Source of the DNA: Candidatus Bathyarchaeota archaeon
GTDB taxonomy: Archaea; Thermoproteota; Bathyarchaeia; Bathyarchaeales; Bathycorpusculaceae
Direction: 5' to 3'
NCBI GenBank assembly: GCA_937873375.1
Contig: CALMWK010000115.1
Coordinates: forward strand, 1 to 34,119
Length of the DNA stretch: 34,119 bases
Shown: positions 20,309 to 22,130 of the stretch, one piece after another
How positions within the stretch are numbered: position 1 is the stretch's first letter
Layout of the letters: each line of letters opens with the position of its first letter
Notes under the pieces: generated by a model
The model's input: only the letters and a program-made list of their open reading frames with translations
Told to the model about the DNA's origin: nothing
Database searches by the model: none
Translations under genes and position numbers: made by a program

Positions 20309-21100
20309 TCAAAGGTTGAGGACATCTTGCATGCTGAAGATTTTCGGCTGGTTCTGCCTGCTGAGCCAATCCGCCGCGTAAACGGCACCTTGTGCAAAAA
20401 CGCTTCGGGAGAAGGCGGTGTGTTCTATGCGAAGCATTTCGTAGGGTCCTGCAATTATGAGGTCGTGGATGCCTGGGACTCCGCCTGCACGCATGGCTAC
20501 GATTTCAAGTTCTTCGGGTTTTCTTGGGCTTATGCCTTCTCTTCCGTAGACTGTGGCTTTGTATCCGCGGGTGTTGGCGACGATTTCGCCGAGTTTCTTG
20601 GCGGTGCCACTGGGTGCATCTTTCTTGGCGGTGTGGTGGATTTCGCTTATGCTAAAGTTGTATTCTGCTGGAAAGGCTTTGAGGACTTCTGCGAGTTTAA
20701 AGAACATGTTAACGCCTACGCTGTAGTTGGGCGAGAAGACGGCTGGAACTTTTCCTTCTACGGCGCTTCGGATTTGGCGATTCTGTTCTTCTGTGAAGCC
20801 TGTTGTGCCTAGGATAATTCTTTTTCCCAAGTTGGCTACCGCAGGGAGATTGGCGACTTCTGCGGCGGGCGCGGTAAATGTGATGTAGACATCTGCGTTG
20901 GCTACGGCTTCGCTGAGCCTATCAGGTCCCATGATGAGGGTGTCGCTGTGGGTTATGCCTAGTTCTTTGAGGCTTTTGCCGATACAGGGGTTGCCTGCCG
21001 CTTCAATGGCGCCCACTATTTGGTGTCCTTTGCTGGTGGCGTCCGTTATGATGGCGTTGCCCATTTTGCCTGCGGCGCCTGCGACGCACAGCTTAAGCGT
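20309..21100 (-). CDS. dapB: 4-hydroxy-tetrahydrodipicolinate reductase, apparent ACG start
   Basis: 263 residues if translation begins at the ACG at 21100-21098. It reduces the DapA product with NAD(P)H. Motifs are the dinucleotide site CVAGAAGKMG, GTTGF, SPNYSVGVN, and EIHHTAKKDAPSGTA with the catalytic histidines and lysine. The first ATG in frame (21064) falls inside the dinucleotide site and would delete its start. The frame is open for about 14 codons above the ACG, to a TGA, and holds no ATG, GTG or TTG. A strong GGAGGG sits eight bases before the ACG. A CTG at 21091 is the other non-standard option. dapA ends inside the first codons (8-base overlap). Confidence 0.9.
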   Translation of the reverse strand, partial: TLKLCVAGAAGKMGNAIITDATSKGHQIVGAIEAAGNPCIGKSLKELGITHSDTLIMGPDRLSEAVANADVYITFTAPAAEVANLPAVANLGKRIILGTTGFTEEQNRQIRSAVEGKVPAVFSPNYSVGVNMFFKLAEVLKAFPAEYNFSISEIHHTAKKDAPSGTAKKLGEIVANTRGYKATVYGREGISPRKPEELEIVAMRAGGVPGIHDLIIAGPYEMLRIEHTAFSRSVFAQGAVYAADWLSRQNQPKIFSMQDVLNL

Positions 21101-22130
21101 AGTAGAGTCCCTCCAGGTAGCGTTCGTTGTATAGTCTGTCTTTCAGGTTAACATCAAAGAAGACCTCAATTGGTGCGAGAATTTCAGGGTTATTCTCGTA
21201 AACTTTCTTTGCTGCGGCTATGACGACTTCTAAGCCGTTGCGGGTCATTTTGCCCAGCGGTTGCCTACAAGGTCCAGAAGGCATACCTAAAATATTCATT
21301 AGTGTCTTGGTTGCTAGGGGGTTGCGTGCTTTGCATGTTACGGGTCCATAGGCGGTTTGTTCTTGGGTCTTAACGGTGATTGCTGAGAACAGCGGTTGTA
21401 GTGCTTGGACGATTTTTTGTGCTTCGGCGTGGTTGCCCTCAAGACTAAAACGAATTATGTCGCTTAAGGCGTGGGGTGCAATGTTGGAGGTGACTGAAAT
21501 GGCTCCGCTTGCCGCGATGTCTGGCGAGGTCAGCATGGTGAAGGTTTTGTCGTCGTCGCCTGAGAGAATGTCAAAGTCGTTTCCGCAGACCTTGCGCGTT
21601 AGCTTCATGTTTTCTAGGTCGCCTGTGGCTTCCTTCACGGTGCGCACATTTGGGTATTGCGAATGCAGAACTGCTATGTCTTGCGGTAAAAGTTGGCATC
21701 CTGTTCTGCCGGGGATAACGTAGGGGATAAGTTGCATGTCTGGGAACTGCCTTGCGATGGGTTCAACGTATTCTCTGCGAATTTCAAGGCTGCTGGGTCC
21801 ATTATAGTAGGGGTCTACCAGCAAGACAGCTTGGACGCCGATGTGCTGGGCGTGCACGGTGCCTTCTATGGCTTCCTGCGTGCTGTTGCTTCCTGTACCA
21901 GCGATTGTTACGCCTTTGCCGCCTATGTATTCGTGAATATGTTCTGTGACTTTGTTATGTTCGTTCCAGTCTAAGGTGGGGCTTTCGCCAGTGGTGCCGC
22001 AGGCTAAGATGCCACTTGCGCCTTCTCTAATTTGGAATTCAACTAACCTTTGTAAACCCTCGTAGTCTACTTCACGGTTTCTGCGGAAGGGGGTTACGAG
22101 AGCAGTGTAACAACCTTTGAAATACGTCAT
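21093..22130 (-). CDS. dapA: 4-hydroxy-tetrahydrodipicolinate synthase
   Basis: 345 residues, about 50 longer than the usual 290. A class I aldolase barrel that condenses pyruvate with aspartate semialdehyde. GTTGESPTL carries the threonine of the proton relay, DPYYNGPS the tyrosine donated by the neighbouring subunit, YVIPGRTG the tyrosine and arginine of the active site, and VKEATGD the Schiff-base lysine. The C-terminal extension (about 295-345) is charged and ends in RLYNERYLEGLYYA. First gene of the lysine operon, with AGAGG upstream of the ATG and a BRE/TATA promoter at 22169-22188. Confidence 0.95.
   Translation of the reverse strand: MTYFKGCYTALVTPFRRNREVDYEGLQRLVEFQIREGASGILACGTTGESPTLDWNEHNKVTEHIHEYIGGKGVTIAGTGSNSTQEAIEGTVHAQHIGVQAVLLVDPYYNGPSSLEIRREYVEPIARQFPDMQLIPYVIPGRTGCQLLPQDIAVLHSQYPNVRTVKEATGDLENMKLTRKVCGNDFDILSGDDDKTFTMLTSPDIAASGAISVTSNIAPHALSDIIRFSLEGNHAEAQKIVQALQPLFSAITVKTQEQTAYGPVTCKARNPLATKTLMNILGMPSGPCRQPLGKMTRNGLEVVIAAAKKVYENNPEILAPIEVFFDVNLKDRLYNERYLEGLYYA

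Follow-up and report, generated by a model that had tools for sequence, protein, structure and literature searches.

The window analysed here, a stretch of 34,119 nucleotides, is contig C115 of the Bathyarchaeia MAG G000 (2.0 Mb, 164 contigs). Its reverse strand carries dapA (dihydrodipicolinate synthase; 21093–22130; Pfam DHDPS, E = 1.1e-69) followed by dapB (dihydrodipicolinate reductase), whose coding region, taken from an ACG codon (21098–21100) to the stop, spans 20309–21100 and encodes 263 amino acids with the expected Pfam domains. The two genes overlap by 8 nt (21093–21100), the dapA stop codon TAA (21095–21093) lying inside dapB. A dapA Tyr codon, TAC (21101–21099), overlaps the dapB start codon in such a way that TAT or TAC in dapA is ATG or ACG in dapB. 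When translated, the dapB frame runs from a closing TGA (21143–21145) through 14 codons to the ACG, then through L-K-L-C-V-A-G-A-A-G-K to the first in-frame ATG (21064–21062, codon 13). All coordinates of the original prediction hold, as does its central observation that no ATG, GTG or TTG occurs in the dapB frame of G000 from the upstream TGA to codon 13. The ACG was likewise correctly placed inside the end of dapA, eight bases after a strong Shine–Dalgarno motif, GGAGGG (21109–21114), read from the sequence. Measured from GGAGG the spacing is 9 nt, within the genus-wide peak of 8–11 nt between GGAGG and ATG starts.

Counted from the ACG, the Pfam DapB_N match covers residues 3–126 (profile positions 2–124 of 124; E = 3.6e-26) and DapB_C is complete at residues 129–261, so both domains are intact with this start. 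Initiation at ATG 21064 would cut into DapB_N, because the match begins at residue 3, and would delete beta strand 1 and the greater part of the GxxGxxG nucleotide-binding motif, the leading glycines of GAAGKMG among it.

About 90 relatives were compared overall, and the dapA–dapB junction was taken from 57 loci of the window's family, an alignment that the original prediction had proposed as a check. The start column is ungapped in 55 of these loci, with ATG in 50 and ACG in five. Four of the five belong to the window's genus (G000, G002, G003 and G004), the fifth, G029, to a different one; the window thus shares its ACG with four other species, and GTG or TTG occurs at no family locus. The other two loci have shifted starts: the ATG of G056 lies one codon before the usual column, and G034 has ACG at the usual column with a new ATG three codons downstream. 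The ACG lies exactly at the column where 50 relatives have ATG, which is more than chance would give, and this column places the dapB start of G000 at the ACG. The gene has no normal start codon and almost certainly begins at ACG, so that the original proposal of an ACG start is strongly backed by the relatives. An assembly or base-call error might be suspected in a MAG broken into 164 contigs; it is unneeded and very improbable, since four other species, whose genomes were assembled independently, carry ACG at the same place, and ACG also recurs in other genes (see below). The DapB of G034 (locus L056) has an N-terminal extension of about nine residues, as if its new ATG had taken over from an ACG start.

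Translation of dapB from another codon was also considered, the candidates being CTG (21091), a CTT and ATG 21064. CTG is known to serve as a start, if rarely, and ATG 21064 is the first standard start in the frame, but the CTG is not kept in the other ACG species (CTC, CTC, CTA and TTC) and lies 18 nt from GGAGG, while the ATG, besides losing the nucleotide-binding motif, has an internal position in relatives whose start is the upstream ATG, which aligns with the ACG column. We regard such a start as improbable. Still less probable, and on a par with a sequencing error, is a DapA–DapB fusion produced by frameshifting near the dapA stop: the two genes do share 8 nt, read in different frames, but a slippery sequence is not evident, dapB has its own ATG start at an equal overlap in most relatives, and the other ACG genes have no comparable upstream frame.

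The overlap with dapA offers an explanation for the choice of codon. An invariant Tyr is the penultimate dapA codon, with the same 8-nt overlap, in all 55 dapB loci that have ATG or ACG at the column. A change from ATG to ACG in dapB is a synonymous change from TAT to TAC in dapA, whereas GTG or TTG would alter the Tyr, which accounts for ACG being found rather than either of these. Outside the window's genus ACG is strongly avoided in dapB (one of about 48 loci, although TAC makes up 64% of Tyr codons; p = 3e-20); within the genus, where four of seven loci have ACG, there is no difference from the 72% share of TAC. ACG in dapB occurs only together with a GGAGG Shine–Dalgarno, which lies within 22 nt of the start in 5/5 ACG loci compared with 7/50 ATG loci (Fisher p = 2e-4, with ancestry ignored), an association that rests largely on one clade and for which independent pairs are too few for a test. 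GGAGG precedes dapB in every member of the window's genus and in G029, and a strong Shine–Dalgarno thus seems to allow almost free drift of the dapB start codon between ATG and ACG. The dapB ACG would have had several origins, through TAT-to-TAC changes that are silent in the overlapping dapA.

This pattern bears on the suggestion that weak initiation at ACG sets the DapA:DapB ratio, which we do not find supported, because closely related species differ in having ATG or ACG: the DapB tree requires a minimum of five switches between them, and the window's genus itself is divided into four species with ACG and three with ATG. Such a split is expected from synonymous drift of the dapA Tyr codon, and a second gene, described next, keeps ACG in a different context.

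Besides dapB, the strongest ACG case is a FAD/Fe-S oxidoreductase subunit identified by the Pfam domain DHODB_Fe-S_bind. Its start column in the family loci holds 22 ACG, 26 ATG, one GTG and one TTG, with the ACG form spread over seven genera (g1, g3, g5, g9, g15, g24 and g31) and at least eight start-codon changes on the tree. GGAGG precedes the start in 22/22 ACG loci. Three of the genes (L144, L146 and L163) contain no ATG, GTG or TTG within their first 79 codons, and most of the other ACG loci contain none before codon 19. With a fixed search pattern, 18 genomes of the window's family gave the ACG form, against 0/166 genomes from other families of the class. The oxidoreductase ACG would be old and mostly kept. 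Here too the start sits where two genes meet, with the upstream stop ending between 4 nt before and 13 nt after it. A 13-nt overlap with an upstream iron-sulfur protein gene was seen at 15 of the 22 ACG loci (e.g. L136:2331-2343), where an ATG would change Arg to Cys in the protein encoded upstream; loci with ATG mostly have other junction geometries. One genome, G001, contains a second oxidoreductase gene (L213, contig C74) and a second dapB (L009, contig C45), both of which group with genus g5 and suggest contamination of that MAG by these contigs.

Further candidates came from a scan of the genus (1.23 Mb, later 1.63 Mb) for codons that follow a Shine–Dalgarno and precede a coding sequence without any NTG start. 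In the 1.63 Mb, ACG was the top non-NTG codon, with 13 occurrences against a mean of 2.6 (CTG, 0; ATT, 1; ATC, 1; ATA, 5), some of the matches probably being spurious, as G004 -41286 and G002b +321782 appear to be. The argH start column contains 18 ATG, four GTG, three TTG and three ACG, the last unambiguous in G002 alone, as the other two have a possible alternative start within three codons. In the GINS subunit gene of G005 a TAA stands immediately before ACG-Pro, where orthologues have NTG-Pro, and a DEAD-box helicase gene has ACG at the matching position in two species, G004 and G005. A pilin-like gene of G006 shows GGGAGG and then ACG, with ATG in a relative. Taken together, these alignments indicate that ACG is a recurrent putative start codon in several genes of the window's Bathyarchaeia family and not in dapB alone. 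Predicted ACG starts are in this sense a family-level trait, and hence of more interest than originally supposed. A DUF39 gene was rejected as an ACG case because it is ambiguous, g5 orthologues having TTG one codon later and other species CTC or CTA there; this homocysteine-biosynthesis-like gene (L165-L194) has no clear NTG start in g1 and some others, and may use non-standard starts. Another candidate (b in G004) was set aside, having no close relatives with a comparable start.

Apart from plant organelles, eukaryotes and the viruses of eukaryotes, recurrent ACG starts are very unusual. Among 61,358 ancestral AUG starts of bacteria and archaea, switches to GUG (363), UUG (113), CUG (2) and AUU (1) were recorded, but none to ACG (Belinky 2017, PMC5622118). 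The original statement that such starts are very rare in prokaryotes therefore stands in general, but not for the window's family, where they recur in several genes. Searches of open-licence papers turned up ACG starts for eukaryotes, eukaryotic viruses and plastids, and none for archaea or Bathyarchaeia. The ancestral-start survey also reports that genes switching to a suboptimal codon tend to compensate with a stronger Shine–Dalgarno (Belinky 2017, PMC5622118). The known non-AUG starts of prokaryotes (GUG and UUG, rarely CUG and AUU) likewise place a suboptimal codon behind a strong Shine–Dalgarno, but their mismatch falls at the first or third codon position, whereas that of ACG falls at the second. 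Near-cognate ACG starts of eukaryotes and viruses involve the same codon read by the Met initiator tRNA, although there by scanning ribosomes in a good context, and here in an archaeon with Shine–Dalgarno placement.

We consider it likely that the dapB ACG is used through Shine–Dalgarno-driven, near-cognate initiation by the ordinary initiator tRNA, with ACG being tolerated and recurrent in the family. The strong Shine–Dalgarno (GGAGGG at optimal spacing) would position the ribosome on the ACG, and termination of dapA a few bases downstream probably assists. Initiator Met-tRNA (CAU) would then take ACG with a C.A mismatch at the middle base of the codon; because it is this ordinary Met-tRNA that would accept the codon, DapB would carry Met as its first residue. 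The sequences show where the ACG lies, its conservation and recurrence, the lack of other starts, the Shine–Dalgarno context, a normal initiator tRNA gene and the presence of aIF1; from these we infer ribosome use of ACG, the C.A pairing, the Met and the coupling. Translational coupling of dapB to dapA termination is plausible given the 8-nt overlap, and coupling to the upstream gene may help initiation at ACG in dapB, the oxidoreductase and the pilin-like gene. In their junctions dapB (8 nt) and the oxidoreductase (upstream stop from -4 to +13 nt) resemble known overlapping, translationally coupled gene pairs, from which they differ in starting with ACG; several other ACG genes do not overlap an upstream gene. 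Coupling as a general requirement was rejected, since the GINS, DEAD-box helicase and kinase genes with ACG are not closely coupled to the gene upstream.

The initiation machinery encoded in G000 looks ordinary in the parts searched. Its initiator tRNA is a single, normal gene with a CAU anticodon, A1-U72 and GGG/CCC in the anticodon stem. No initiator-like tRNA with a CGU anticodon was found in this genome, its CGU tRNA being typed as tRNA-Thr, and an initiator tRNA with an altered anticodon was accordingly rejected. Loss of the start-fidelity factor aIF1 (SUI1, PF01253) was rejected as well, the domain being found in 18/18 family members searched. A broader proposal is that relaxed initiation makes ACG a regular fourth start codon genome-wide, in at least half a dozen gene families and about half a percent of genes, by way of a changed initiation machinery, for example in initiator tRNA modification, initiation factors or 16S rRNA; we put this forward tentatively, as a possibility somewhat short of an even chance. 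A tRNA-like gene without a clear anticodon according to ARAGORN was also seen in G000 (L255, G000:C72:17532-17806).

Plant organelles, in which ACG is the preferred non-standard start codon, suggest a different route to the same pattern, namely C-to-U editing of the mRNA, which would turn ACG into AUG and allow initiation at a normal codon. As in the organelles, ACG occurs here where relatives have ATG, the two interchange freely, and ACG is favoured as an odd start over CTG, ATT and ATC. Many organelle ACG starts are edited to AUG, but we see no sign of general C-to-U editing in these archaea. Of the four directions of transition at conserved internal sites in DapB and the oxidoreductase, the one that C-to-U editing could mend accounts for the fewest departures (5, the others giving 23, 34 and 58), and editing would not predict the association with strong Shine–Dalgarno sites. 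To our knowledge, no mRNA editing of this kind has been described in archaea. Editing therefore seems improbable, slightly more so than initiation at another dapB codon, and Shine–Dalgarno-driven initiation at the ACG itself is preferred.

Annotation pipelines and gene finders accept NTG starts, and ACG-started proteins of these archaea would therefore be truncated or missed. A lineage whose orthologous genes start now with ATG, now with ACG would also be a natural system for studying how the archaeal ribosome polices the second base of the start codon. The dapA–dapB junction illustrates, in addition, how overlap with the preceding gene can direct the evolution of a start codon, in this case because the change is silent in dapA. 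Apart from ACG, two purF-like ORFs (G002_1141 and G005_803) have no NTG before the expected N-terminal Cys, and in both an ATA just before GGC TGC GGT is a possible start.
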